This document shows, piece by piece, positions 3,707 through 55,543 of a stretch of DNA of 64,000 bases. Within the stretch, counting starts at the first letter, position 1. The number at the start of each line of letters is the position of its first letter. The stretch is taken from the NCBI RefSeq assembly GCF_004217145.1, contig NZ_SHKR01000018.1:310001-374000 (forward strand). Direction: 5' to 3'. The position numbers were made by a program, and so were the translations under genes. A model generated the notes under the pieces. That model did not search any database and was not told the DNA's origin. It saw nothing but the letters and a program-made list of their open reading frames with translations. This stretch comes from Kribbella rubisoli. GTDB lineage: Bacteria > Actinomycetota > Actinomycetes > Propionibacteriales > Kribbellaceae.

Positions 3707-3822
3707 ACCGGAGGCATCGGGCGAATCGTAAGCGGCAAGATCTCCTGATCTGGTTGGGGTTGCGCTCAGGCGTCAGGAGGTGTTCGCTGGACTGTGCAGT
3801 CGACGTCCAGTGGACGGTCGAG

Positions 3823-4152
3823 ATGGACTTTTCGACATAATTCGAGGAACTCGAGAAGCGTACGTCGGATGCGCTGGCGACAGCGCGCACTGCGGCCACC
3901 GCGTCGCGAGACCAACTCCGCGGGCAGATCGATCGGGCCCAGGTCGACCTCGATCTCGCGGGCAAGGACGCGCAGCAGCAGGCGGCCAAGACAGCGGAAC
4001 GCGTAGAGCAAGTTGGCGCAGATGAGGGCCGACGCCAAGTCGAGCATGGACGACGTCAAAGCCGGGATCGACAAACGCACGCTCAGCTGGACGCGAAGAT
4101 GGCGGAGAACGACGCGGATGAGCAGAGGTTGATGCCGTCGACGCGATCGACC
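3823..4152 (+). pseudogene. Decayed coiled-coil protein gene (paralogue of 55106-55543)
   Basis: The reading starts MDFST, then a TAA at 3838-3840 replaces the Gln of the intact paralogue (MDFSTQFEALEKRT). It resumes FEELEKRTSDAL and RDQLRGQIDRAQVDLDLAGKDA. A frame change near 3950-4010 leads to SKLAQMRADAKSSMDDVKAG. A second returns to AQLDAKMAENDAD, and a third gives AEVDAVDAID, where similarity ends. One nonsense codon and three frame shifts make this a clear pseudogene. It is one of four members of this family in the window (also 25895, 41152 and 55106), and the ISL3 remnant starts 45 bases after its end. Confidence 0.88.
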
Positions 4153-25894: not shown

Positions 25895-26311
25895 ATGAAC
25901 TACACCGAGTCTTTGGTAGCACTGCAGAAGAGTGTCGACGACACCGTCGACGAGATCCGGCAGGCCGCCGTGGAGGACCACGAGCACCTCGCCGCCCGCA
26001 TCGACAAGCACGAGTCGTCGGCTCGGCAGCGGTTGGACGACGTGAACGGCAAGCTCGACAGCAAGTGGAACCAGGTGAAAGCCGACGCGTCCGCCAAGAT
26101 GACCGATCTGAAGGCGAACATGGCACAACGCCGCAAGGTCCGCGACGCCGAGGTGGCCTCGTCGGACGCGGACTGGGCCGAGGCCGACGCCGCCTCCGCC
26201 GTCGACCTGGCCATCTGGGCAACCGACAACGCACGGAACTCGATCCTCGACGCGATCGATGCCCGCAACCACGCCGATGACCTGACCAAGCTGGCCGCGC
26301 AGCACGCATGA
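25895..26311 (+). CDS. Coiled-coil protein, window paralogue family
   Basis: 138 residues, helical throughout. A long heptad-like region (VALQKSVDDTVDEIRQAAVE, QRLDDVNGKLDSKWNQVKAD and AKMTDLKANMAQRRKVRDAE) is followed by the family signature SSDADWAEADAASAVDLAIW and ATDNARNSILDAIDARNHAD. The WxQxKADASAKMxDxKA and DADWAEADAA motifs recur at 41152 and 55106 and in the pseudogene at 3823. GAAGGAG precedes ATG 25895. The family is not recognised; a phasin-like or structural role is possible given the copy beside the PHA genes. Confidence 0.8.
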   Translation: MNYTESLVALQKSVDDTVDEIRQAAVEDHEHLAARIDKHESSARQRLDDVNGKLDSKWNQVKADASAKMTDLKANMAQRRKVRDAEVASSDADWAEADAASAVDLAIWATDNARNSILDAIDARNHADDLTKLAAQHA

Positions 26312-34186: not shown

Positions 34187-34957
34187 ATGCAACTCAAGGA
34201 CAAGGTGGCGGTCGTGACCGGCGGCGCCCAGGGCATCGGCCTGGGGTTGTGCACGCGGTTCGCCCAGGAGGGCGCACACGTCGTGCTGTCGGACCTCAAG
34301 CAGGAGGCCTGCGAGCGCGAGGCAGGCAAGATCGACGCGTTGCCCGTCGCGGCCGACGTGAGCCGGGAGGAGGACATCGCGAACCTCGTGTCGGCCGCAG
34401 TGGACCGCTTCGGGCAGGTGGACCTGTTCGTGTCCAACGCCGGGATCGCCGTCGACGGAGGCATCGACACCCCCATCGAGGGGTGGCGCAAGATCATCGA
34501 CATCAACCTGATGGCCGAGGTCCACGCGGCCAAGCACGCCATCCCGCACATGCTCGAGCAGGGCAGCGGCTACATGCTCAACGTGGCGTCAGCGGGCGGC
34601 CTGCTGGTGATCCCCGACACGGTCTCGTACACGGTGACCAAGCACGCGGCGGTCGGGTTCTCCGAGTGGCTCGCGGTCGTGTACGGGGATCGCGGCATCG
34701 GCGTCAGTGTGCTGTGCCCAGCGGCGGTTGCCACGGCGATCCTCGCGGGGAAGGAGGACACCCCGGAGGGCCGGGGCGCGATCAGCACGGAAGAGCTCGC
34801 CGGGATCGTGGTGGACGGGCTCGCCGAGGAACACTTCATGATCTCGACGCACCCGTGGGTGCTCGAGAAGTTCGCCATCAAGGCGCGCGACTACGACGAG
34901 TACATCAGGACGCTGCAGGCCGACATCCCGGCGGCGGCCAAGGCTGCGGCGGTGTGA
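34187..34957 (+). CDS. Short-chain dehydrogenase/reductase
   Basis: 256 residues. Classical SDR marks are the NAD(P) motif VAVVTGGAQGIGLGL, ADVSREEDIANLV, NAG in LFVSNAGIAVDGG, catalytic Ser in NVASAGGLLV and Y-x-x-x-K in SYTVTKHAAVGFSE. The Asp in VLSDLKQEA after the second strand favours NAD(H). The intact state stands out because its neighbours on both sides are broken. ATG 34187 follows GAAAGGACC. The substrate is unknown. Confidence 0.88.
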   Translation: MQLKDKVAVVTGGAQGIGLGLCTRFAQEGAHVVLSDLKQEACEREAGKIDALPVAADVSREEDIANLVSAAVDRFGQVDLFVSNAGIAVDGGIDTPIEGWRKIIDINLMAEVHAAKHAIPHMLEQGSGYMLNVASAGGLLVIPDTVSYTVTKHAAVGFSEWLAVVYGDRGIGVSVLCPAAVATAILAGKEDTPEGRGAISTEELAGIVVDGLAEEHFMISTHPWVLEKFAIKARDYDEYIRTLQADIPAAAKAAAV

Positions 34958-39579: not shown

Positions 39580-39687
39580 ACTGGTTACGCCGTCTTCGGC
39601 GTGGAAGTGGGGCCGGGATACCGTCATCGATGGCAGGTGATTTGCGACTGGCACGCTTACCGACGTTGCGCGAGACTGTGGTGGATG

Positions 39688-39786
39688 GTGTCGGAGCTGT
39701 TGGGTCCTGGCTGGCGGTCCTCGGATCTTCCGCAACGGCCGGTGTTGGTTGTCAACCCGAGATCTGGCGGGGGCGCGGCCGGCCGT
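39688..39786 (+). pseudogene. Possible diacylglycerol-kinase-like N-terminal scrap
   Basis: The plus frame reads RPVLVVNPRSGGGAAGR. The VNPxSGGG motif marks the nucleotide site of diacylglycerol and related lipid kinases. Nothing before or after it is recognisable. Confidence 0.35.
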
Positions 39787-39869
39787 CTCAGCTTCACCGG
39801 GACTGGCCTGCGAGACGTCGGTGTCGGCAAGCGCGGCAGCAGAGCGGGTGGCGTGGATCGTGTCCCTAT

Positions 39870-40466
39870 CCGCTCGCCGCTGAGGACCCTGGCGGCGTTG
39901 ATCAGGGCCCGTGCGGTCACCGCCTGATTGCGGTTCAGGCAGCCGTGCGTGAGCTCGGCGCCCTTCGGCTTGCTCGTGGTGCCGGGGGTATAGAGGATCA
40001 CCGCGATGTCGTCGTCGGACCGGCTGACGGGGTCGGTCGCGGGCGGGGTCGCCGCCAGCGCGGCTTGGAAGTCCCAGTCCCCCGGCGCGACCGCCAGGCA
40101 GTCGGGGCCTGCGGCCTTCGCACCTGCCTCCGCCTCGGCGGCACAGTCATGCCAGGCAATCAGCAGTTTGGCGGCGGAGTCGCGGAGGTAGTACTCCACC
40201 TCGCGCTTCCCAAGCAGCGGGTTCATCGGCACGACGACACCGCCGGCACGGAGGATGCCGTAGTACGAGATCGCGAACTGCACGTTGGGAAGCATCAGCC
40301 CGACACGGTCGCCAGGCTCCAGGCCGCTGCCGCGCAGCAGCGTGACCATTCGGGACGCGGCGTCGTCCAGAGCCGCGTACGTCAGCACGTGGTCATCCAT
40401 CCGGACGGCCGGGTGGTCCGGGTACATCGAGGCGGACTCGGTGAGGTTCTGGCTGAGGTTGGTCAT
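39870..40466 (-). pseudogene. Truncated AMP-binding (acyl-CoA ligase) gene
   Basis: ATG 40466 opens a CoA-ligase N-terminus: MYPDHPAVRMDDHVLTYAAL, GDRVGLMLPNVQFAISYYGI and GGVVVPMNPLL. The ATP loop YTPGTTSKPKGAELTH follows; the usual Gly after TT is Ser. Similarity ends after about 200 of the expected 500 residues, near ALINA, and the frame runs on into unrelated sequence. Both the adenylation core and the C-terminal lid are missing, so it cannot work. It is the last gene of the leftward operon starting at 41598. Confidence 0.8.
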
Positions 40467-40479
40467 GTCGGCCTCTTCG

Positions 40480-40836
40480 TCAGATCTTGCCGAAGGCGAG
40501 CCAAAGATAGGCCACGAGCAGCACGATGACGACGAGCGCTGGCGCCATCTCGGCTACGCCGTCGTGCTGGCGCAGGTGCGCGCCGAGGGCTCCAACCATG
40601 AGGAGCAGCAAACCCGCCGCGGCGAGCAGGCCGAGCGGGGGTATCGCGAGGCCGATCAGGACTCCTGCGGCACCCGCGACCTCCAGGACCCCGATGCGCT
40701 GGTAGGCACCGACACTGAACCCGACGTGCGCGGCCCGGGCCTGCATCGACGCGACGGCTCGGATCTTGCTTGCGCCCAGCACCGCAAAGGCGACAGCGAT
40801 GAGCGCGGCCAAGCAAACAAGGAGTGGGGTAGTCAT
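40480..40836 (-). CDS. DoxX-family membrane protein
   Basis: 118 residues with four helices: LLVCLAALIAVAFAVLGASK, RIGVLEVAGAAGVLIGLAIP, LGLLAAAGLLLLMVGALGAH and ALVVIVLLVAYLWLAF. The GASKI motif and QRIGVLEVAGAAG mark DoxX-like proteins. It is a paralogue of 49767-50120 in the right operon. ATG 40836 overlaps the stop of the upstream small gene (ATGA). DoxX proteins are often found with oxidoreductases; the precise role here is unknown. Confidence 0.85.
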   Translation of the reverse strand: MTTPLLVCLAALIAVAFAVLGASKIRAVASMQARAAHVGFSVGAYQRIGVLEVAGAAGVLIGLAIPPLGLLAAAGLLLLMVGALGAHLRQHDGVAEMAPALVVIVLLVAYLWLAFGKI

Positions 40837-41036
40837 AGCTGGATCTCCGACTTCCGCGGAATGGTGAGTGCGTCGACGACAGCCTTGCCTGCTGCTTGGT
40901 CGACCTCGTCCAGGTCCAGATCCGGCTTCTCGAACTCCAGCCAGGCGAGGTCGTGCACATTGACCGCCGACGCGTCCTGGGCGCCGGCCTGCATCGTGTC
41001 GGGCACCGGGTCGGGGGTCTTCAGGTCATTAGTCAT
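40833..41036 (-). CDS. Short VOC-like protein, probably a truncated dioxygenase gene
   Basis: 67 residues. VNVHDLAWLEFEKPDLD corresponds to the start of the extradiol dioxygenase at 45822 (VLDLAWLQFVKPDLV). The rest, AAGKAVVDALTIPRKSEIQL, does not match it. The frame is intact, has AAAGGAAG before ATG 41036, and its TGA overlaps the DoxX start, so it is probably still translated. A dioxygenase function is excluded because all metal-ligand regions are missing. Confidence 0.55.
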   Translation of the reverse strand: MTNDLKTPDPVPDTMQAGAQDASAVNVHDLAWLEFEKPDLDLDEVDQAAGKAVVDALTIPRKSEIQL

Positions 41037-41151
41037 TGCAAACTTCCTTTGGGTGATGCCGCCCGGGCAGGGAGTCAGCCATTCCTGCCCGGCGCGGCGC
41101 GAGGGCTGTAAGGAGAACTGGGGCTTCGTGGCCACCGGTCCGATTGGGGGA

Positions 41152-41598
41152 CTACGAGTTGTCTGCGGCTTTGGCGAGCTTGTCGGCGTGGGCGCGGGCG
41201 TGGATGGAATCGAGGATGACCAGCTGCGCGTTGTCGACCGCCCAGTCGGCGAAATCGAGGGCTTCGGCCGCGTCAGCTTCTGCCCAGTCGGCGTCGTTCG
41301 CGGCGAGCTTGGCGTCCATGTGACGGGTCCGCTTGTCCATGTTTGCCTTGACGTCGCTCATCTTTGCCGCGGCGTCGGCCTTTACCTGCGCCCACTTCGC
41401 CCGAGCGCTGTCGGCGGCCTGCGAGGTCTCCTGCCGTGCGTTCTGGGCTGACTGGTCCAGGTTGGACTGAGCCCGGTCGATCCGCTCCTTGAGTTGCGCT
41501 TCGGACTCGGTCGCGGCCGTCTGCACCGCCGACTTCGCCGTCTGAACCCGCTTCTGCAGATCGTCCAGCCGCGTGGAGAAGTTCGTGTGTTGCGTCAT
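41152..41598 (-). CDS. Coiled-coil protein beside PHA genes (phasin-like candidate)
   Basis: 148 residues. A helical region (RLDDLQKRVQTAKSAVQTAA, AQLKERIDRAQSNLDQSAQN and ARAKWAQVKADAAAKMSDVK) is followed by the family signature AANDADWAEADAAEALDFAD and WAVDNAQLVILDSIHARAHA. It belongs to the same family as 25895 and 55106. Here it is the first gene of an operon preceded by a perfect 28-base TetR-type palindrome and lies near phaC and phaZ. That context and its amphipathic helices make a granule-associated role possible but unproven. Confidence 0.8.
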   Translation of the reverse strand: MTQHTNFSTRLDDLQKRVQTAKSAVQTAATESEAQLKERIDRAQSNLDQSAQNARQETSQAADSARAKWAQVKADAAAKMSDVKANMDKRTRHMDAKLAANDADWAEADAAEALDFADWAVDNAQLVILDSIHARAHADKLAKAADNS

Positions 41599-41652
41599 GA
41601 GCTACCACCTTCGTTAGATTCGGGCCCAATGAGAGCCTCTTGTAATGTTTCT

Positions 41653-41680
41653 GCAGTACTGACGATATCGTCAGTACTGC
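41653..41680. promoter_or_regulatory. Perfect 28-base palindrome, TetR-type operator
   Basis: The inner 20 bases are TACTGACGATATCGTCAGTA, flanked by GCAG and CTGC. It lies 55 bases before the start of the coiled-coil gene (41598). The core TGACGATATCGTCA recurs at 45786, with a close variant at 44909 and a weaker one at 45742. Confidence 0.85.
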
Positions 41681-41865
41681 AATCTGGTCAAGCTGCCATG
41701 GCGAAGACATGACGAAATCCTCAGTTAGCTGCTCGTCCGCGACCGGCACTCTGGTCGAGCGGACCATCCGTTCACGCTGCTGCTGCACCCTGCCCGCATG
41801 GACGGCTACGACCACCCGGCAGACCGAACCGTCGCCCGCGTCATCGGTCCCGGCGCCATGGACCG

Positions 41866-42144
41866 CCGATGAACTGGTCGTCGCCTCACTCGGACAGATC
41901 GTGCATGCTCCGGCGACAAGGGCGGCGACGCGAATCTCGGCTTGTGGGGTATGCGACTGTGAGGCCTGGGTCTGGCTCAAGTCGACCCTCACCATCGACG
42001 AGCTCCGCCCAGCTCCTTCCGGAAACGCGTGAGTTGGCAATCTCGCGCTGCGAACTGCCCAACCTGGGCGCGGTGAACTTCGTCATCCGGGGACTCCTCG
42101 GGGCCGGCGCCACCTCGACGCTGCGGCTGGACGCGCAGGCAAGG
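41866..42144 (+). pseudogene. C-terminal remnant of an AtuA-like protein
   Basis: Pieces in three frames read VVASLGQIVHA, then SGDKGGDANLGLWGMR, then LLPETRELAISRCELPNLGA and VNFVIRGLLGAGATSTLRLD. These match the C-terminal domain of acyclic terpene utilisation AtuA-like proteins (HxRSGDKGGxANLGxW ... ELPNLxALNFV). At least two frame shifts and a TGA after MRL inactivate it. It lies on the other side of the 41653 operator, and a weak operator-like site is at 41710. Confidence 0.68.
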
Positions 42145-42305
42145 CGCTCGGTGAATGACTGCGCTCACGCAGCACCGAGGTGTCGCATCCATTGGTGAAG
42201 ACGTAGCTCGACGGACAGCTCGATGCGCCTACGTCGACGGCCAGAAGAAGTCGCGATCCTGTGTTCGCCGAGCGAACGGACCTCGGGAGAGCGGGCAGCG
42301 AGCCG

Positions 42306-43136
42306 TCAGTGGCTCGATGAGATGCCATCGGCTCTGGGGGCGGTCAGAAACCGCGAGACGAGCGGGCCGAGCTCGTCGGCGGCGGTAAGCAGGCCGAGGT
42401 GGCCGTCGTCGAACACGTGCAGTGTGGCGTTGGGCAGCAACGCCCGCATGATCCGCGCGTTCACCAGCGGGATCATCGGGTCGTCGTTCCCGGCGAGGAC
42501 GAGGGTGGGCTGCCGGATGAGTGGCAGAGCGGGGAGGCTGGACCAGCCGATCCCGGCGAGGAGCTGGAGGGAGTACCCGGTCCTGGACCCGAGGCGCTCC
42601 TGCTCGTAGACCACGTGCCTCACCTGGTCGGGCTGCCGCCGCATCCGGCCGCCGTACAGCACCGGCGCGACGGCCTTGGCGTATGCCGGGTCGCGGTAGC
42701 GCCGCGGGGTGAGCATCTTGCTAAGCACGCTGAGGCGGGCCGGGACCATCAGCATGCCGGTCCCGGTGCTGACCAGCACCAGTCGTCGGCAGCGACGCGG
42801 GTACTGCAACGCCACCTGTTGGGCCAGGCCGCCGCCCCACGAGATGCCGAGCGCGTCGAACCGGTCGTAGCCGAGCCGGTCGACCAGCGTCCCGACGAGG
42901 CAGGCCAGCATCGCGAAGTTGTACGGCACCTTCGGCATCGGGGAACCACCCACACCCGGTACGTCGAACCGGACCACCTCGATCCGCGGGTCGACCTCGT
43001 CGACGAACGGCTGGAGCAGGTCGAGGCTGGCCCCGATGCCGTTGCAGAGCACCAGCGGCGGCCCCGGTGCCGTGCCCGGCCGGACGGCCACCCGGACGTC
43101 GTGGCCGAGGACACGGACCCGGAGGAACCTGGTCAC
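42306..43136 (-). CDS. phaZ: Intracellular PHA depolymerase-like alpha/beta hydrolase
   Basis: 276 residues. GHDVRVAVRPGTAPGPPLVL, NGIGASLDLLQPFVDEVDPR and FDVPGVGGSPMPKVPYNFAM match medium-chain PHA depolymerases. The nucleophile elbow is LGISWGGGLAQQVALQYPRR, the acid lies in LAGNDDPMIPLVNA and the His in VFDDGHLGLLTAADE. It would release hydroxyalkanoate monomers from cytosolic granules. The GTG start at 43136 overlaps the phaC stop (GTGA), so the two are translationally coupled. Confidence 0.87.
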   Translation of the reverse strand: MTRFLRVRVLGHDVRVAVRPGTAPGPPLVLCNGIGASLDLLQPFVDEVDPRIEVVRFDVPGVGGSPMPKVPYNFAMLACLVGTLVDRLGYDRFDALGISWGGGLAQQVALQYPRRCRRLVLVSTGTGMLMVPARLSVLSKMLTPRRYRDPAYAKAVAPVLYGGRMRRQPDQVRHVVYEQERLGSRTGYSLQLLAGIGWSSLPALPLIRQPTLVLAGNDDPMIPLVNARIMRALLPNATLHVFDDGHLGLLTAADELGPLVSRFLTAPRADGISSSH

Positions 43137-44824
43137 TTGTCGAAAACGTAGGTGCCGGGCGCCTCCGCGAGCACGCCCTGGCGGTGCGACCCGAGCGCCT
43201 TGGGTGCCGGACGCTGCGCGCCCCAGCGTTCGTCGAGCCACAGACCGAGGTCGGTCCACCAGGTGTCTCGGTGGACGTCGGAGCCCTCGAGCCAGACCTT
43301 GGCGTCGGAGGTCAGATCGTCGTTGGTGTGGAAGGACGCCTTGGGGTTGCCGGGCGGGTTGACCAGGGCAGCGATGTGACCACTGGTGGACAGCACGAAT
43401 CGGGTCGTGCCGCCGAGGAGCTGGGCGCTGCGGTAGCAGTTCTCCCACGGGGTGATGTGGTCGGCGATGGCCGCCACCACGTAGGAGTCGACCGTGATCT
43501 TGCCGAGGTCGATCGGCACGCCCAGGACGGTGAGGGCGCCGGGCCGGGTCAGCGAGTTCTCCATCGCCAGGTCGATGAAGTCGGCGTGGAGTGCGGTGGT
43601 CATCCGGGTGGTGTCGGAGTTCCAGAACAGGATGTCGAACGCCGGTGGTCGCTTGCCGAGCAGGTAGTTGTTGACCCAGTAGGTCCAGACCAGGTCGCCG
43701 GGCCGGAGCCACGCGAACACCTCGGCCAGCGCCCGGCCGTCGAGGTATCCCTTGCGCGCCGACTTCGCCTTGGCCCGGCCCGCCAACCTCTCGTCGACGA
43801 GGGCAGACACAGTCCCGGCATCGTGGTTGTCGATGACTGTAACTGCCAGGCAGAGCGCGGCCAGCCGGTCCTGCCGGCCGATACCGGCGAGGTAGGCCGC
43901 TGCCATGCTCGCGAGGATGCCGCCGGAGCACACTCCACCGAGCACCGTCCGCGCGCTGCCCGTGATCTCCTCAACGGCGTCGAGAGCGTCCAGGATGGCA
44001 CGAACATAGGTGTCGAAGTTCCAGGAGGCGTGCCGCGAGTCCGGGTTACGCCAGGAGACAACGAACATCTGCCTGCCCTGCCGGATGCCGAACTCCACGA
44101 GGCTCCGCTCCGGGGCGAGGTCGAGCGCGTAGAACTTGTTGATCGTGGGCGGGATCACCAGCGTCGGCACCTCGGAGACCTCGTCGGTCTGCGGCGCGTA
44201 CTGGATCAGCTCCAGCACCTCGTTGCGAAAGACGACCTCGCCTGGCGTCGCGGCGATGTTGTCGCCCACGACGAAGCCGCTGCCGTCGACCATCTCCGGC
44301 ACGCGGGGGGCCGAGGCCAGGTCCGTCACCAGCTGCTTGCCCCCGCGCACCAGGCTCAGCCCGGCAGTGTCTATGACGGCCTTGGCCGAGGCCGGGTTGA
44401 CCAGCGGTACGTTGCTGGGAGCGGTCGCCTGGATGACGTTCTCGAGGAAGAACCGCACGCGCTTGCGGTCGCGTGGGTCGAGGTCGGCGTCGATCACCAG
44501 CTGGTCGACGGTCTGCCCGCTGGCCAGGTAGAGCTGGAGCAGCCGCTTCAGCAACGGGTTCTCGGTCCAGGCGACATCGGTGAACCTGCGGTCCCCTCGG
44601 TGCGGCGCGAGCGTCGAGGCGCCGGTGAGGATGCGCCTGGCCTCGACGCCCAGCCGGCCGAGGCGCCGCGCGGTGATGTCCGGCTTGCGCGCGAGAGAGA
44701 CCGCCCACTTCGCCGTCGACATGTCGGGGACGAAGCGGCGTACCGGGCCGAGGGCGGCGTCGACCAGAAGTACGTCGAGGGAAGCAGCGCTCTCGGCGAG
44801 CCTGGAGGTAGTGGCGGTGTTCAT
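43133..44824 (-). CDS. phaC: Polyhydroxyalkanoate synthase, class II-like
   Basis: 563 residues. The N-terminal region is followed by the catalytic domain. It includes LVIPPTINKFYALDLAPERS, FVVSWRNPDSRHASWNFDTY, the lipase-like box LGGVCSGGILASMAAAYLA with Cys as nucleophile, WTYWVNNYLLGKRPPAFDIL, the Asp in IADHITPWE and the His in STSGHIAALVNPPGN. The enzyme polymerises (R)-3-hydroxyacyl-CoA on granules. Length and neighbours (coupled phaZ) resemble medium-chain-length systems. A TetR-type operator at 44909 lies 85 bases upstream. Confidence 0.93.
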   Translation of the reverse strand: MNTATTSRLAESAASLDVLLVDAALGPVRRFVPDMSTAKWAVSLARKPDITARRLGRLGVEARRILTGASTLAPHRGDRRFTDVAWTENPLLKRLLQLYLASGQTVDQLVIDADLDPRDRKRVRFFLENVIQATAPSNVPLVNPASAKAVIDTAGLSLVRGGKQLVTDLASAPRVPEMVDGSGFVVGDNIAATPGEVVFRNEVLELIQYAPQTDEVSEVPTLVIPPTINKFYALDLAPERSLVEFGIRQGRQMFVVSWRNPDSRHASWNFDTYVRAILDALDAVEEITGSARTVLGGVCSGGILASMAAAYLAGIGRQDRLAALCLAVTVIDNHDAGTVSALVDERLAGRAKAKSARKGYLDGRALAEVFAWLRPGDLVWTYWVNNYLLGKRPPAFDILFWNSDTTRMTTALHADFIDLAMENSLTRPGALTVLGVPIDLGKITVDSYVVAAIADHITPWENCYRSAQLLGGTTRFVLSTSGHIAALVNPPGNPKASFHTNDDLTSDAKVWLEGSDVHRDTWWTDLGLWLDERWGAQRPAPKALGSHRQGVLAEAPGTYVFDK

Positions 44825-44908
44825 CGAAGGATCTCCTCGCGGTCACAGGTGGCGACCTTTGCAGGTGGCTCCCGGTTAGGGCCGCCAATTGACTGAAGGA
44901 TACCTCGA

Positions 44909-44928
44909 TAGTGACGATTTCGTCAGTA
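44909..44928. promoter_or_regulatory. TetR-type operator before phaC
   Basis: TAGTGACGATTTCGTCAGTA has arms TAnTGACGA and TCGTCAnTA and matches the site at 41653. On the phaC strand CTGACG within it is 18 bases from a TATCCT, so it may overlap a -35 box. Confidence 0.75.
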
Positions 44929-45014
44929 TAGTTCGGAGGGCTGAGCGCCGCGGTGACGGCCGCCCGGAGGGCGCTGGTAGCCGCGGCTCCTAGCGGCGGG
45001 GCAGAATTGAAGCG

Positions 45015-45677
45015 TCAGGCCGCCGAGCCGTCGCCTCGAACGGCGCCGATCTCCGGTAGCGGCAGCGTGCTGATCCGCTGCGCCTGCCGCCGCGTGACGC
45101 CGAACATGCGCAGCAGGTCCGCGGTCAGCCGGTCGGTGGTCTCCTCGACGTCGCGCTCCGGCTGGTCGTGCAGCAGCTGGCCGAGGGCGATCAGGGCGCC
45201 GGCAGCCATCGTGACCGCGACGTCGAGGTCCTCGACGTCGAAGCGGCCGGCATCCGCGGCGGCCGCGATGTCGCGCCGAGCGCGCGGCGCCAAGCCGTTG
45301 TCGGCGCCGAGCAGCCGGAGCACGTTGTTGAGCAGCACCCGGCTGAGCTCCGGCTCCCGGCGTTGGAGCCGTCCGGTGAGCCGGAAACTACAGGCGAACA
45401 CCTCCGCGGGGTCTTCGATGTCGGCGGTCAGGTCGTCGAGCAGCTGACCGTAGCCGTCCATCACCGCCTCGACAGCAGCTTCGAACAGCTGCTCCTTGGT
45501 CTCGAAGTGGTTGTAGAAGGAGCCCATCCCGACGTCAGCGGCTTGGGTGATCTCCAGGATCGGCACATTCGTCCTGCCCTCGGCGATGAGGGTCTGCGCA
45601 GCCCGGATGAGAGCCGCTCGGGTCCGGGCCTTGCGACGGTCCAGTCGGTTGGCCTGCTGCGTTGGTGCGTTGCTCAT
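45015..45677 (-). CDS. TetR-family regulator of the aromatic/PHA cluster
   Basis: 220 residues. The N-terminal helix-turn-helix is ARTRAALIRAAQTLIAEG, VPILEITQAADVGMGSFYNH and FETKEQLFEAAVEAV; the C-terminal ligand domain is helical. It stands between the phaC operon and the dioxygenase operon. TGACGATATCGTCA-type palindromes precede three neighbouring operons, and a weak copy at 45742 precedes its own gene, so it is the natural candidate for binding them. An intermediate of the pathway, perhaps a CoA ester, is a likely ligand (inference). Confidence 0.87.
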   Translation of the reverse strand: MSNAPTQQANRLDRRKARTRAALIRAAQTLIAEGRTNVPILEITQAADVGMGSFYNHFETKEQLFEAAVEAVMDGYGQLLDDLTADIEDPAEVFACSFRLTGRLQRREPELSRVLLNNVLRLLGADNGLAPRARRDIAAAADAGRFDVEDLDVAVTMAAGALIALGQLLHDQPERDVEETTDRLTADLLRMFGVTRRQAQRISTLPLPEIGAVRGDGSAA

Positions 45678-45741
45678 GATCTCCTCGGCGTCTCCATCGG
45701 TGGGTGGCGTGCACCCATTCTAGCGTGGGTGCTGTCAGAAA

Positions 45742-45755
45742 TGACGTTTTCCTCA
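45742..45755. promoter_or_regulatory. Degenerate TetR-type site before the regulator gene
   Basis: TGACGTTTTCCTCA keeps the TGACG left arm and TCA right end of the consensus and lies 65 bases before the TetR start at 45677. Confidence 0.4.
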
Positions 45756-45785
45756 GATGCTCTTGACTGAGCATATGTTCGTGAA

Positions 45786-45799
45786 TGACGATATCGTCA
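45786..45799. promoter_or_regulatory. TetR-type operator before the dioxygenase operon
   Basis: TGACGATATCGTCA is a perfect 14-base palindrome, 23 bases before ATG 45822. A TTGACT at 45763-45768 lies 17 bases upstream of it, so it probably covers the -10 region. Confidence 0.8.
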
Positions 45800-45821: not shown

Positions 45822-46955
45822 ATGACCAGTCACCGCGGGACTCACAGCGACCTGCACAGCGAGCAGGGCGCACTACGCGCCGAGCACCCGGGACGCGCGA
45901 AGAACCCCGTCATCAAGGTGCTCGATCTGGCCTGGCTCCAGTTCGTCAAGCCCGACCTGGTCGCCTCGGAGCGCTTCGCGCACGCGTTCGGGTTCACCAC
46001 GGTGAGCCGGACGGCGGACGAGCTGCTGTTGCGCGGGACCGACTCCGGCGATCCGTGTGTGGTCGTCCGGCGCGGACCCTGCTCGAGGTACCTCGGTGCG
46101 GCCTTCCGGGCGGCGGACTCCACCGATTTGGTGCGGCTCGCCGACGCCACCGGGACGAGGGTCGAGAAGCTCCCGGAGCACCTGGGCGGGTTCACTGTGG
46201 ACCTGACCGACCCGAGTGGGGTCATGGTCCGGGTTGTCGCCGACACCCATGAGCTCGCAACCCTGCCGCCCCAGTCGACGCAGGTGTTGAACTTCGGGCA
46301 CGACGTGAGGCGCGCCAACGCCATGCAGCGCCCGCCGCGGGTCCCCGCGAGGGTCCAGCGATTGGGCCACGTGGTGCTGCAGACCACGAGGTACGTCGAG
46401 TCCCTGAACTGGTACCTGGAGCACCTCGGTCTGATCGTCAGCGACTTCAAGTACTACGAGGGGCAACGCGAGCGCGGCCCCACCATGAGCTTTATCCGCT
46501 GCGACCGAGGCATGACTCCCACCGACCACCACACTCTGGCGATGATGCTCGGCCCCAGCAACCGGTACGTGCACTCGGCGTACCAGGTCGGGGACCTCGA
46601 CGCGATGGCCGCCGGCGGAGAGTACCTCCGCGACCTCGGCTTCCACCGCTCCTGGGGGATCGGCAGGCACATCGAGGGCAGCCAGATCTTCGACTACTGG
46701 CGCGACCCGGACGGTCTACTGGTCGAGCACTTCGCCGACGGTGACCTGTTCGACTCCAGCCTGGAGCCCGGCTGGTCGCCGATGACGGTGTCCGGGCTGG
46801 CCCAGTGGGGACCGCCGGCCACCAAGGACTTCCTGGGTCTCACCCCAGGACGAGAGGCGTTGCGCGAGCTGGTGTCGATGGCTCGTTCGCTGCGCGAAGA
46901 CAACGAGTTCGACCTGACCCGCCTTCACGGCCTCCTGAAAGTGACGAGTTCATGA
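45822..46955 (+). CDS. Extradiol ring-cleavage dioxygenase-like VOC protein
   Basis: 377 residues with two VOC modules. The catalytic second module has RLGHVVLQTTRYVESLNWYL (first His), MMLGPSNRYVHSAYQVGDLD (second His) and DPDGLLVEHFADGDLFD (Glu), the two-His-one-Glu iron site of type I extradiol dioxygenases. It should open a catechol-type ring with O2. The first module starts DLAWLQFVKPDLVASERFAH. It is the first gene of a five-gene operon with ATGA overlaps. A ribosome site GAGGAG precedes ATG 45822. Confidence 0.88.
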   Translation: MTSHRGTHSDLHSEQGALRAEHPGRAKNPVIKVLDLAWLQFVKPDLVASERFAHAFGFTTVSRTADELLLRGTDSGDPCVVVRRGPCSRYLGAAFRAADSTDLVRLADATGTRVEKLPEHLGGFTVDLTDPSGVMVRVVADTHELATLPPQSTQVLNFGHDVRRANAMQRPPRVPARVQRLGHVVLQTTRYVESLNWYLEHLGLIVSDFKYYEGQRERGPTMSFIRCDRGMTPTDHHTLAMMLGPSNRYVHSAYQVGDLDAMAAGGEYLRDLGFHRSWGIGRHIEGSQIFDYWRDPDGLLVEHFADGDLFDSSLEPGWSPMTVSGLAQWGPPATKDFLGLTPGREALRELVSMARSLREDNEFDLTRLHGLLKVTSS

Positions 46956-47890
46956 GCATCACGATCCTTCGTACGCCCGACGCCTGGTGGGTCCGCACTC
47001 CCGACGGCGCCGCACGTATCGACACCGAAGCCAAGACCACCGGTGAGCTGCTCGCCGAGCACGAGCAGATCGAGGCGGCCCGGGGCAGCAGGACAACCGT
47101 CGACCCGGCCACCCTCGAGCTCGTGTCCCCGGTGACGACGCCCTGCCGGGTGGTGGCGCAGATGACGAACTTCGCCAGCCATGTGAAGGATTCAGGGCTC
47201 GACCCGGACACGATCCCGCTGGCGTTCTTCCGGAAGGCGTCAGGCTCGATCAGCGGCCCGTTCGACGACATTGTCCGGCCCGCTCACGTGCGCTACCTGG
47301 ACTACGAGGTCGAGATCGGCCTGGTGATCGGCCGAGAGCTGCCGGTGGGCACGGCGGTCATGGCGGACAACTGGGCCTCGTTCGTGGCCGGCTTGGTGGT
47401 GACCAACGACGTCTCGGCCCGCGACGTGCAGCTGCCGAAGACCCAGTTCTTCGAGTCGAAGTCGTACCCGACCTTCACGCCGGTGGGGCCGTCGCTGGTC
47501 CTGCTCGACGACGACGAGCTCAAGCGGTTCGGCGACCTTCGCCTGCGCCTGTGGGTCAACGGCGAGTTGCGCCAGGACTCGGTGGTCGACGACGACATGG
47601 TCTACTCCCCGCCGGAGGCGCTGCAGGGACTGAGCCGGTTCCAGCGGCTGGACGAGGGTGACCTGCTCCTCACAGGGACCCCGGCGGGCACCGCTCTGAG
47701 CGCACCGCCCAAGCCGCTCGAGATCATCGCCGCATTCCTGCCGCCCACATTGAAGTGGAAGATCTTCTTCCAGCGGCAGGCCCAGAACCCGAAGTACCTC
47801 AAGCAGGGCGACGTCGTCGAGGTCACCATCGGGACCGACGACGGTGCGATCGACCTCGGCCGGCAGCGCACCGTCGTGAGGGGCGAGTGA
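46952..47890 (+). CDS. Fumarylacetoacetate hydrolase family protein
   Basis: 312 residues. FAH-fold marks are ASHVKDSGLDPDTIPLAFFR, the metal site YLDYEVEIGLVIGRELPVG (Asp and Glu residues), VTNDVSARDVQLPKTQFF, SYPTFTPVGPSLV and DLLLTGTPAGTALSAPP. Members cleave or hydrate 2-oxo acids after ring opening, so this enzyme probably handles the dioxygenase product. ATG 46952 overlaps the stop of the dioxygenase gene by four bases. Confidence 0.88.
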   Translation: MSITILRTPDAWWVRTPDGAARIDTEAKTTGELLAEHEQIEAARGSRTTVDPATLELVSPVTTPCRVVAQMTNFASHVKDSGLDPDTIPLAFFRKASGSISGPFDDIVRPAHVRYLDYEVEIGLVIGRELPVGTAVMADNWASFVAGLVVTNDVSARDVQLPKTQFFESKSYPTFTPVGPSLVLLDDDELKRFGDLRLRLWVNGELRQDSVVDDDMVYSPPEALQGLSRFQRLDEGDLLLTGTPAGTALSAPPKPLEIIAAFLPPTLKWKIFFQRQAQNPKYLKQGDVVEVTIGTDDGAIDLGRQRTVVRGE

Positions 47891-49770
47891 TGGGCGACCG
47901 CCTCTGGCCGACGTACGACACGCCGGACGACCTCGCGGGGATCGAGGCCGTGCCGCTGGGCGACCGTGGCCTGCCGGGGACGACGTACGAGCTGCTCTTC
48001 CGGGCCGCCCGGCTGTGGCCGGACCGCGTCGCCCTGTCGGTGCTCCCGGACGGCGAACGGTGGGAGCAGCCGGCGGAGCGATCCTACGCCGAGCTGCTGG
48101 GCGACGTACATCGCTACGCCAACATGCTCCACGCGCTGGGGGTGCGCCGGACCGACGGGATCGCGCTCCTCGCCCCGAACTGCGACGAGCTCATCACCGC
48201 GACCCTCGCGGCGGAACTCGCCGGCATCGCCGCGCCGATCAACAGCGGGCTGTCCCGAGAGCACATCGCCGAGCTGCTGCGCAGGTCGGGCGCCCGGGTG
48301 CTCGTTGCTGCAGGCCCCGACCTCGCGCCGGAGGTTTGGGAGAGCGCACGGGAGCTCGCCGTCGAGGCCGGGATGGAAGCCCTGCTCGCCCTCGGCCCGA
48401 CGAGGGTAGGCCCAGGAGAGCCGGAGCTGCACCCGATCGACGGCCTCCGGATCGCCCACGTCTCCGCGCTGGCGGCCGAGCAGCCACCCGACGCCTTCGT
48501 CGGGCCGGCGCCCTCGGCCACCGACCTGGCCGCTGTCTTCCACACGGGCGGCACGACCGGCACGCCGAAGCTCGCAGCACACACCCACGCCAACGAGGTC
48601 AGCGACGCCTGGATGATCGCTGCCAACGGGCTGCTGAGCGACGGGGTGATGTTCGCTGCGCTGCCGCTCTTCCACGTCAACGCCCTCCTCGTCACCGTTC
48701 TGGCCCCGCTGTTCAGGGGCCTCCGGGTCATCTGGGCAGGCCCCCTCGGGTACCGCGACCAGGCGCTGTACTCGCGCTTCTGGAAGCTCGTCGAACGCTA
48801 TCGGGTCACCACGATGAGTGCCGTGCCCACCGTGTACTCCGTCCTCGCCGGCCGCCCTGTCGACGCCGACATCAGCAGCCTCCGCTTCGCTGTCGTCGGC
48901 GCTTCACCCCTGCCGCCAGCAGTCCGGGACGGATTCGAGTCCGCCACCGGCATCCGGCTGGTCGAGGGCTACGGCCTCACCGAAGCTACCTGTGTCAGCG
49001 CACTGAGCTTTCCCCACCATCCGCGTCCCGGATCCGTCGGCCAGCGCCTGCCGTACCAGCAGGTGAAGGCCGTCCAGGTCACCGCCGACGGCGAGTGGGT
49101 CGACCTGCTGGCCGGTCGGGTCGGCGTGCTCGCCATCAGCGGGCCGACTGTCTTTCCCGGCTACGTCACCGACCGTGGTCCTGACGGGCGCGTCCTGGAC
49201 GGGCTGGGCAAGCTGCGCGACGGCTGGCTGGACACCGGGGACCTGGCCTGGGTGGACGCGGACGGCTTCATTCACCTCGCCGGCCGAGCCAAGGACCTGA
49301 TCATCCGGGGCGGTCACAACATCGAACCGGCGGTCATCGAAAACGCGCTGCTGGCACATCCGGAGGTCACGGCCGCGCAGGCCGTGGGTCGTCCGGACGT
49401 GCACGCCGGCGAGGTGCCGGTCGCGTTCGTCACACTCGCCCCGGGCGCCGACGCGACCGCAGAGGAGCTGCGCGCCTGGGCGTCCGACCACGTGCCTGAG
49501 CAGGCGGCGGCACCCAAGGCCGTCACCGTGCTGGACGCACTCCCCGTCACCCTGGTGGGCAAGCCGTTCAAGCCCGCCCTACGCGCCGAGGCCACCCGAG
49601 AGGCCGTCGCCGAAGCGCTCCGCGATATGCCCTCGGTCACCGGCGTCCAAGGAGTGGTCGAGGACGGTGCGGTCGTCGCGGTCGTCGGCCTGGCCCCTGG
49701 TGCCGACGAGTCCTCGGTCAAGGAAGCACTCGGCCGGTTCGCGATCACCTGGAGATTGGAACTGTCATGA
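47890..49770 (+). CDS. Acyl-CoA synthetase, AMP-binding family
   Basis: 626 residues. The ATP loop is FHTGGTTGTPKLAAHTH, later motifs are VEGYGLTEATC and WLDTGDLAWVDADGFIHLAG, then RAKDLIIRGGHNIEPAVIEN and the lid Lys region VTLVGKPFKPALR. It would activate an organic acid to its CoA ester via an acyl-adenylate. The tail after 560 (VQGVVEDGAVVAVVGLAPGA) is longer than usual. Start and upstream stop share one base (TGATG). The broken ligase in the leftward operon (39870) is a functional counterpart. Confidence 0.9.
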   Translation: MGDRLWPTYDTPDDLAGIEAVPLGDRGLPGTTYELLFRAARLWPDRVALSVLPDGERWEQPAERSYAELLGDVHRYANMLHALGVRRTDGIALLAPNCDELITATLAAELAGIAAPINSGLSREHIAELLRRSGARVLVAAGPDLAPEVWESARELAVEAGMEALLALGPTRVGPGEPELHPIDGLRIAHVSALAAEQPPDAFVGPAPSATDLAAVFHTGGTTGTPKLAAHTHANEVSDAWMIAANGLLSDGVMFAALPLFHVNALLVTVLAPLFRGLRVIWAGPLGYRDQALYSRFWKLVERYRVTTMSAVPTVYSVLAGRPVDADISSLRFAVVGASPLPPAVRDGFESATGIRLVEGYGLTEATCVSALSFPHHPRPGSVGQRLPYQQVKAVQVTADGEWVDLLAGRVGVLAISGPTVFPGYVTDRGPDGRVLDGLGKLRDGWLDTGDLAWVDADGFIHLAGRAKDLIIRGGHNIEPAVIENALLAHPEVTAAQAVGRPDVHAGEVPVAFVTLAPGADATAEELRAWASDHVPEQAAAPKAVTVLDALPVTLVGKPFKPALRAEATREAVAEALRDMPSVTGVQGVVEDGAVVAVVGLAPGADESSVKEALGRFAITWRLELS

Positions 49771-50120
49771 ACCCGACATCGATTCTTGCGGGCCTCCTCA
49801 TCGTGGCCTTCGCTGCCCTCGGGTCTGCCAAGCTCGCCGCCGTACCCGCCATGCGCGCGAAGGCCGAGCACGTGGGCTTGAGTGTCTCCGCGTACCGACG
49901 GATCGGCTTCGCCGAGGTCCTCGCCGTCATCGGCCTGCTCGTCGGCGCCTTCGCGCCAGTGGTCGGTGCCCTGGCCGCCGCGGGACTCCTGATGCTCCTG
50001 GGCGGGGCAGTCGTCGCGCACCTGCGCAAGGGCGACGGTGTGCGCGAGATCGCCCCGGCCGTGGTCCTGAGTGTGGTGGCCCTGACCTTCCTCCTTCTCG
50101 TGGTCGGAGACCTTCGATGA
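49767..50120 (+). CDS. DoxX-family membrane protein
   Basis: 117 residues with four helices: SILAGLLIVAFAALGSAKLA, RIGFAEVLAVIGLLVGAFAP, VVGALAAAGLLMLLGGAVVA and VVLSVVALTFLLLVVG. It is the paralogue of 40480-40836, including the GSAKL/GASKI motif and HLRxxDGVxEMAPA-like loop. It overlaps both neighbours by ATGA, showing tight coupling in the operon. Confidence 0.87.
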   Translation: MNPTSILAGLLIVAFAALGSAKLAAVPAMRAKAEHVGLSVSAYRRIGFAEVLAVIGLLVGAFAPVVGALAAAGLLMLLGGAVVAHLRKGDGVREIAPAVVLSVVALTFLLLVVGDLR

Positions 50121-55105: not shown

Positions 55106-55543
55106 TTATGGAGCGTTTGCTGCAGCCCTGGCCCGCTCGTCGGCGTATGCCCGCGCGTCCATGGCATCGAGGGCTGCGAGCCGCGCGTTCTCGACCGTCC
55201 ATGCGGCGTAGTCGATGGCGTCGGCTGCGTCCGCTTCGGCCAAATCCGCGTCGGTGGCGGCCAGGTTGGCGTCGCGCTGCTCGTTGCGCTTCTCGATCTT
55301 CGCCTTCACATCGTCCATCTTGGCCGACGCGTCAGCCTTCATCTGCGCCCACTTACTCTGCGCCTGCTCGGCGGTATCACCCGCCTTCTGTTCGACGTCC
55401 TTGCCGGCCTGATCGAGGTCGACCTGGGCCTGGTCGATTCGCGAGCGCAGTTTGTCGCGCGACTCGCCGGCCGCGCTCTTCACCGCGGACAGCCCCTCGG
55501 CAGTGCGCTTCTCGAGGGCCTCGAACTGCGTGGAGAAATCCAT
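55106..55543 (-). CDS. Coiled-coil protein, window paralogue family
   Basis: 145 residues: MDFSTQFEALEKRTAEG, RDKLRSRIDQAQVDLDQAGK, QSKWAQMKADASAKMDDVKA and the signature ATDADLAEADAADAIDYAAW and TVENARLAALDAMDARAYAD. It is the closest intact relative of the pseudogene at 3823. GGGGAGGGAACG precedes ATG 55543. The conserved tail of about 45 residues is shared by all copies and may be a separate helical module. The function is unknown. Confidence 0.8.
   Translation of the reverse strand: MDFSTQFEALEKRTAEGLSAVKSAAGESRDKLRSRIDQAQVDLDQAGKDVEQKAGDTAEQAQSKWAQMKADASAKMDDVKAKIEKRNEQRDANLAATDADLAEADAADAIDYAAWTVENARLAALDAMDARAYADERARAAANAP

Follow-up and report, generated by a model that had tools for sequence, protein, structure and literature searches.

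Can a single regulator tie the cleavage of an aromatic ring to the storage of carbon? Formation of polyhydroxyalkanoate (PHA) is usually described as responding to the nutrient status of the cell or to the supply of fatty acids. The question was raised by a 64,000-nucleotide stretch of the Kribbella rubisoli genome (contig NZ_SHKR01000018.1, positions 310,001 to 374,000; hereafter the window), where a gene for a TetR-type regulator (tetR) lies between an aromatic catabolic operon and PHA genes. The initial annotation of the window had proposed that this regulator controls hydroxylation, ring cleavage, CoA activation and storage together through one palindromic operator. Our analysis supports that proposal, through the conservation of the motif beside tetR, its nearly constant distances from gene starts and its specificity among phaC genes. 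It is probable that one TetR repressor of the RolR subfamily controls its own gene, the aromatic operon, the PHA synthase and depolymerase genes phaC-phaZ and a unit encoding a phasin-like protein, and that a phenolic ligand releases it. In our reading, the interval from 39.6 to 51.7 kb holds these four transcription units.

Operator sites in the window

Three exact copies of the motif TGACGAnnTCGTCA were found within 4.2 kb, before the phasin-like gene, before phaC and before the ring-cleavage operon. All three lie outside called genes. Together with the weaker copies, the sites are:

41652-41681: operator 1, perfect 30-bp palindrome upstream of the phasin-like unit
41710-41723: weak partner of operator 1, TGACGAAATCCTCA, 50 bp from it
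44912-44925: operator 2, TGACGATTTCGTCA, centre 94.5 bp upstream of phaC
45742-45755: operator 3, TGACGTTTTCCTCA, a weak site nearer to tetR, 44 bp away from operator 4
45786-45799: operator 4, TGACGATATCGTCA, centre 29.5 bp upstream of the dioxygenase start

The core of operator 1 is likewise TGACGATATCGTCA (41660-41673), within the 20-mer TACTGACGATATCGTCAGTA at 41657-41676. A perfect palindrome upstream of the coiled-coil (phasin-like) gene had been annotated as 28 bp at 41653; it is present, but it measures 30 bp. The palindrome overlaps a promoter-like match on the right strand for the phasin-like gene. The partner at 41710, which the initial annotation did not list, has one mismatch in the 12 fixed bases of the motif, and partner sites 49-50 bp from a strong site were also seen in loci L035, L036, L037 and L147/L170 of relatives. 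Operator 2 is held in the 20-mer TAGTGACGATTTCGTCAGTA at 44909-44928. It is a single site for which no partner was found; it has counterparts in L035 and L044, and in L046 with one mismatch. The sites previously quoted at 44909 before phaC and at 45786 before the dioxygenase operon were both confirmed in the sequence.

Within the window, a search with the 20-mer at up to three mismatches gave three matches, one being the query itself, compared to 0.01 expected. In the 8.64-Mb genome, exact TGACGANNTCGTCA occurs at four places, three of them the window sites. A reversed-pattern control occurred three times. Four is hardly above three, which counts against the proposed regulon, and the exact-site count by itself is unremarkable. 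The probability that three of four exact sites fall inside 4.2 kb is about 3e-6 under uniform placement. At up to two mismatches there were 1250 genomic matches versus 570 for the control, and the degenerate motif is unspecific by itself. Beyond the three sites of the window, the genome has one exact match. Genome-wide counts were rejected as proof and, since they are unspecific, conservation in other genomes was used as the decisive evidence.

Conservation of the operator beside tetR

A TetR alignment scan of named genomes gave 79 loci, which are the best matches listed. With nine further relatives' regions and without L045, a duplicate of the L036 contig, 87 loci were examined. A divergent set was defined by tetR and a dioxygenase gene in divergent orientation within 1200 bp, and comprised 62 rows, 61 of them distinct (L057 and L073 overlap). 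Scored against the 12 fixed bases, 38 of these 61 regions had an exact best match, 16 had one with a single mismatch, 4 one with two and 3 one with three; in a scrambled-palindrome control, 0.12% of trials reached one mismatch or fewer. Two sites, each with at most three mismatches, stood 43-45 bp apart in 54 of the 61. This recurrent pairing of sites explains the weak copy before tetR at 45742, which had been noted earlier and was confirmed.

The search was extended to the 300 bp upstream of every tetR hit scoring 90 bits or more, whether or not it belonged to the divergent set (n = 96; one further hit, too near a contig end, was left out). The best site was exact for 48, had one mismatch for 25 and two for 12, and was worse for 11. 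The 34 hits outside the divergent set contributed 10 exact sites, 8 with one mismatch and 16 worse. Another 28 loci came from a second sample, 394 genomes belonging to the class, with L005 and L012 (already counted) and three G392 places without a locus left out. Ten of these were exact, eight had one mismatch, two had two and eight were worse, so that 18 of the 28 came within one mismatch.

Spacing was conserved as well. With the start of the tblastn match taken as the gene start in relatives, the distance from operator centre to gene start was 28.5-29.5 bp for the dioxygenase (4 loci), 69.5-71.5 bp for tetR (5 loci), 86.5-95.5 bp for phaC (4 loci, three genera) and 64.5-69.5 bp for the phasin-like gene (5 loci). 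The motif core lies between tetR and the dioxygenase gene in Nocardia, Mycobacterium, Rhodococcus, Amycolatopsis and others. These data support the conclusion that the palindrome tracks this TetR across Actinobacteria.

Alternatively, a different regulator could bind the palindromes, or the one of 30 bp could be a hairpin or the end of a mobile element, its proximity to tetR being coincidental. The 30-bp arms could form a hairpin, and the perfect 32-bp palindrome at L037 10130-10161 has outer arms that are unlike those of the window and yet still complementary. However, the outer arms are asymmetric in some copies of the operator, the core-to-start distance is nearly constant, and the core recurs between tetR and the dioxygenase gene in the genera named above. 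The palindrome was also considered as a terminator and rejected, as no terminator-like match was detected at 41590-41780. We regard this explanation as highly improbable, and TetR is retained as the protein that would bind the sites.

The PHA genes and the phasin-like unit

The genes on this side of tetR are:

43133-44824, minus strand: phaC, PHA synthase, 563 residues (PhaC_N E = 3.2e-54; lipase-like box GVCSG at 297)
42306-43136, minus strand: phaZ, intracellular PHA depolymerase, 276 residues (TIGR02240, 285.2 bits versus a cut-off of 250.6)
41152-41598, minus strand: phasin-like apolipoprotein/coiled-coil protein, 148 residues (Apolipoprotein E = 8.6e-5, below the Pfam cut-off)
40833-41135, minus strand: small open reading frame of no family, likely start near 41036, 71-79% identical in two same-genus loci
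40480-40836, minus strand: DoxX-like protein, 118 residues, in the phasin-like unit
39657-40466, minus strand: truncated AMP-ligase, N-terminal part only, probably a remnant

Every phaC located beside this tetR had a site within 300 bp upstream (4/4; three exact, one with one mismatch). These four belong to the window, K. steppae, Nocardioides guangzhouensis and Intrasporangium oryzae. An exact site was found upstream of none of 12 phaC genes without this tetR as a neighbour. A survey of phasin-like genes gave 18 matches in 58 genomes, K. rubisoli included. Paired sites were present at all six close copies, among which is a pseudogene; none of the 12 distant copies, including the window copy at 55106-55543, had a site within two mismatches. 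It is thus supported that, among the phaC and phasin-like genes examined, the palindrome precedes only those of the window's TetR clade.

Several observations weigh against control of the whole set by this TetR. No exact site was present in 33 of the 87 loci, and the best upstream site had at least two mismatches for 23 of the 96 tetR hits. Eight of the 28 loci of the second sample had three or four mismatches; among these, L179, L181 and L183 have an adjacent dioxygenase gene, and the operator there has drifted or been lost. Linkage to PHA genes is rare, with phaC near tetR in 3 of the 79 named loci listed, although contig ends cut some of them. One phaC without tetR (L132) has a site with one mismatch upstream. 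Genome G412 carries tetR and phaC on different contigs, and its phaC lacks an upstream site. The phasin-like units of G019 are linked to tetR, but no phaC was found there. In the promoter scan, the operator of the phasin-like unit was the one place with matches on the right strand; nothing was found on the phaC strand or between tetR and the dioxygenase gene. Lastly, no PhaJ-type gene was present among the 20 window proteins scanned.

Family assignments were made with the scores in view. PhaC reached 588.8 bits with the class II model TIGR01839 (cut-off 855.4) and 499.9 bits with the class I model (cut-off 622.65); assignment to class II by score was rejected, and the protein is called a PHA synthase only. 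phaZ overlaps phaC in the window. The phasin-like protein had no match to a known phasin family and no NCBIfam match. Among 37 same-genus genomes, six had both a phasin-like gene and phaC, two the phasin-like gene only and four phaC only (Fisher p = 0.002, without correction for relatedness). The gene of the initial annotation's coiled-coil operon, which does have an operator upstream, is best read as phasin-like, from its weak Apolipoprotein match and its co-occurrence with phaC, and not as a member of a phasin family.

Some further observations concern these genes. Additional phasin-like copies lie in the window at 55106-55543, about 25895-26296 and about 3820-4122, one of them broken; no operator was found within 300 bp upstream of these matches. 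The small open reading frame at 40833-41135 contains a stretch, HDLAWLEFEKPDL, that resembles the dioxygenase N-terminus, LDLAWLQFVKPDL, and is kept in relatives. The exact site of G412 (L164, position 7180) lies beyond the 3' end of phaZ. The AMP-ligase at 39657-40466 was rejected as a CoA-activating enzyme of the regulon, as only about 213-230 ligase residues are left in the window and two relatives. In L035/L170 the ligase is likewise N-terminal only, and about 1.8-2.1 kb of extra DNA precedes a stretch matching its last residues.

The regulator resembles RolR

45015-45677, minus strand: tetR, RolR-subfamily regulator, 220 residues (TetR_N and TetR_C_40)

The best PDB sequence match of the window TetR was 3aqs/3aqt, the structures of RolR. 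Its predicted fold was also closest to RolR (Z 20.9, root-mean-square deviation 4.0, 193 residues), other TetR proteins following from Z 17.9 downwards. In the RolR study, Asp94-Arg145-Arg148-Asp149 is the resorcinol-binding motif, Phe107, Leu111, Leu114, Leu142 and Phe172 are the hydrophobic residues that surround the ring, and the definition of the subfamily includes IxxxAxxGxGxFYxxF in the DNA-binding domain (PMC3086911). The window TetR carries this last motif, and its D81, R132, R135 and D136 align to the effector quartet. A numbering offset of 16 between structure chain and paper was deduced for the RolR residues. Among 95 aligned relatives, D81 and R132 were kept in 95, R135 in 89 and D136 in 93; two further hits did not cover these positions and stand outside the 95. 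F94, F98 and L129 are hydrophobic at ring-pocket positions, and the small residues T101 and A159 replace Leu and Phe. The Leu114 position is Thr in 79 of the 95 relatives, and the Phe172 position is Ala, Gly, Ser, Thr or Val in all 95. These residues point to the same diphenol recognition as in RolR, in what may be a roomier pocket.

The same TetR could bind these sites and yet activate the PHA genes, as PhaD does in Pseudomonas, or act with a sign that differs by promoter. PhaD is described as a TetR-like protein that activates phaC1ZC2D and phaIF, and TtdR activates one catabolic pathway while ttdR deletion raises short-chain-length PHA. The 94.5 bp between operator 2 and the phaC start codon, together with the empty promoter scan of that strand, would also suit activation. 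However, RolR, the closest characterised relative, is a repressor; a promoter-like match is overlapped by the operator of the phasin-like unit, and that of the dioxygenase is no more than 29.5 bp from the start codon. Activation or a mixed sign is considered unlikely, and repression is the preferred reading.

The aromatic operon

The rightward operon comprises:

45822-46955, plus strand: extradiol ring-cleavage dioxygenase, 377 residues (domain and family matches; H183, H237, E302)
46952-47890, plus strand: fumarylacetoacetate-hydrolase (FAH)-family enzyme, likely a C-C hydrolase, 312 residues
47890-49770, plus strand: acyl-CoA synthetase, intact, 626 residues (NF005714 above cut-off)
49767-50120, plus strand: DoxX-like small protein, 117 residues
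50117-51652, plus strand: FAD-dependent aromatic hydroxylase, MhpA-like, 511 residues (NF004829 above cut-off; FAD motifs)

From dioxygenase to hydroxylase, each gene overlaps the next by a few bases. H183, H237 and E302, which we take to be the iron-ligand triad (two His and one Glu) of a type I extradiol dioxygenase, were each at least 97% conserved across 73 homologous stretches. The FAH-family protein was nearest to diketo-deoxyrhamnonate hydrolase and HpaG, with scores under the model cut-offs. CoA activation under TetR control, as claimed earlier, would rest on the intact 626-residue ligase of this operon and not on the short ligase at 39657-40466, probably a truncated remnant. The operon contains the gene classes of orcinol and alkyl-resorcinol pathways, namely a hydroxylase, an extradiol dioxygenase and an FAH-family (candidate acylpyruvate-type) hydrolase. 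A P450-like gene was found in 19 loci, with 16 of 20 copies on the operon strand (one copy was family-scanned). By analogy, we hypothesise that the substrate is an alkyl-substituted diphenol, which would suit the single C-C hydrolase, the large CoA ligase, the MMPL transporter present in some strains and the roomier pocket.

That transporter was seen in two loci. At L038 9934-12624, an MMPL-family transporter gene (Pfam) is divergent from tetR with two operators between them, and a gene 88% identical to it occupies the same position beside tetR at L039 10523-13228. It is likely part of the regulon in these strains. A short-chain dehydrogenase gene lies in the window at 34187-34957, outside the four units.

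Evolution of the cluster

In a dioxygenase tree of 75 rows, the window sequence shared a group (97/63) with K. steppae, G019, I. oryzae and N. guangzhouensis. This group lies within a larger set that includes Phycicoccus and is well supported (100/99), and other same-genus rows fell elsewhere. Because dioxygenases of the same genus are scattered in the tree, horizontal spread of the cluster is suggested. The tree needs three changes of the label "PHA-linked", and gains or losses are both possible. Related arrangements also occur on plasmids. A Prescottella equi plasmid typed as conjugative (L173) carries a tetR-dioxygenase-FAH-hydroxylase operon, and a Paraburkholderia plasmid (L171) has a divergent tetR-VOC-FAH arrangement with a dioxygenase 40% identical. 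In K. steppae (L035/L036), tetR occurs three times, each copy having an operator pair; phaC and two phasin-like genes, one intact and one a pseudogene, lie near these copies.

Pseudonocardia acidicola (L053) shows another arrangement. Its phaC follows the hydroxylase gene on the same strand, and the candidate ATG at L053:3971 overlaps the hydroxylase stop codon. phaZ can start within the phaC stop, although the similarity to phaZ covers only part of that open reading frame. No operator of its own was found upstream of this phaC (best, four mismatches). A phasin-like gene lies further downstream of phaC-phaZ. The dioxygenase stands apart from the window clade, and its pairing with Dietzia is weak (95/46). 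This operon fusion looks like a separate route to the coupling of aromatic and PHA genes.

Such apparent mobility raises the possibility that the PHA genes are passengers, with operator-bearing promoter fragments copied along when the cluster moved and no selected regulatory role. The scattered dioxygenases, the three tetR copies of K. steppae and its phasin-like pseudogene, which retains its sites, would agree with this. Against it, the operator before phaC keeps its distance in four loci of three genera, and Pseudonocardia has the same coupling through gene order. We find the passenger explanation distinctly improbable and continue with a shared regulon.

Proposed mechanism and comparison with known systems

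Sequence establishes where the operators lie, how they are conserved and spaced, which genes are present and that the RolR-type ligand residues are kept. From these we infer binding, repression, the ligand and the flow of carbon from ring or side chain into PHA. TetR would bind the palindromic operators, paired except before phaC, in front of tetR, the dioxygenase-FAH hydrolase-acyl-CoA ligase-DoxX-hydroxylase operon, phaC-phaZ and the phasin-like unit. All four would be blocked without ligand. A resorcinol-type phenolic ligand, probably bulkier than resorcinol, would release TetR, so that hydroxylation, ring cleavage and CoA activation would be induced along with PHA synthesis, coating and remobilisation. 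By analogy with the orcinol pathway, an alkyl-resorcinol-like phenol would be hydroxylated and then cleaved, the FAH enzyme would release pyruvate together with a fatty or 3-oxo acid, and an acyl-CoA made by the ligase would feed beta-oxidation and PHA. An alkyl-resorcinol-like substrate may in this way feed PHA.

A wider proposal is tentative, and we think it doubtful as a whole. The cluster could be a mobile actinobacterial module that turns phenolic lipids of the alkyl-resorcinol kind into PHA. The phenol would be detected by a RolR-type sensor whose pocket is widened, the operon would cleave the ring, and the 3-oxo or fatty acid set free would be activated by the ligase and stored by the co-induced PhaC, PhaZ and phasin-like set. 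The coupling would have evolved at least twice, by operator spread in one clade and by operon fusion in Pseudonocardia.

RolR of Corynebacterium glutamicum (PDB 3AQS/3AQT), a TetR-type resorcinol repressor, was compared by protein and is similar in sequence, fold, effector quartet, the IxxxAxxGxGxFYxxF motif and its role in aromatic catabolism. Unlike RolR, the window TetR apparently controls an extradiol/FAH/CoA-ligase pathway and PHA genes, and the Leu114 and Phe172 positions are smaller. The literature search turned up PhaD and TtdR as the nearest regulatory parallels. PhaD of Pseudomonas putida is likewise TetR-like, and its targets are the promoters of phaC1ZC2D and phaIF, two units that encode PHA synthase, depolymerase and phasins. 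It is described as a carbon-dependent activator of PHA genes, whereas the window sites are common to the aromatic operon and the TetR is RolR-like. TtdR of Pseudomonas umsongensis GO16 is a catabolic regulator whose deletion also alters PHA content; it differs in being of the LysR type and in serving an ethylene glycol pathway, and its published abstract reports proteome and PHA changes and no shared operators.

Other actinobacterial phaC clusters, such as one on a Tsukamurella plasmid and other same-genus phaC loci, pair phaC with phaZ, in many cases with a CoA ligase gene close by. In six such phaC loci of relatives, no RolR-like tetR or aromatic operon adjoined. A Rhodococcus 2-isopropylphenol cluster combines a BphC2-like dioxygenase with FAH-like and acetoacetyl-CoA-synthetase-like genes; its monooxygenase, however, is of the two-component type, and the cluster was taken as a different system. 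Among the open-licence PMC papers listed, no description was found of aromatic-PHA coupling by one such regulator, and none of those on alkyl-resorcinol or orcinol catabolic genes described this system.

The storage machinery here appears to be hard-wired to one aromatic pathway through a single ligand-sensing repressor. The defined operator and the short list of likely inducers would lend themselves to a simple reporter test. If the proposal is true, these actinobacteria have a PHA switch that phenols can induce, and biosensor work would gain a sensor of the RolR type whose pocket is different.

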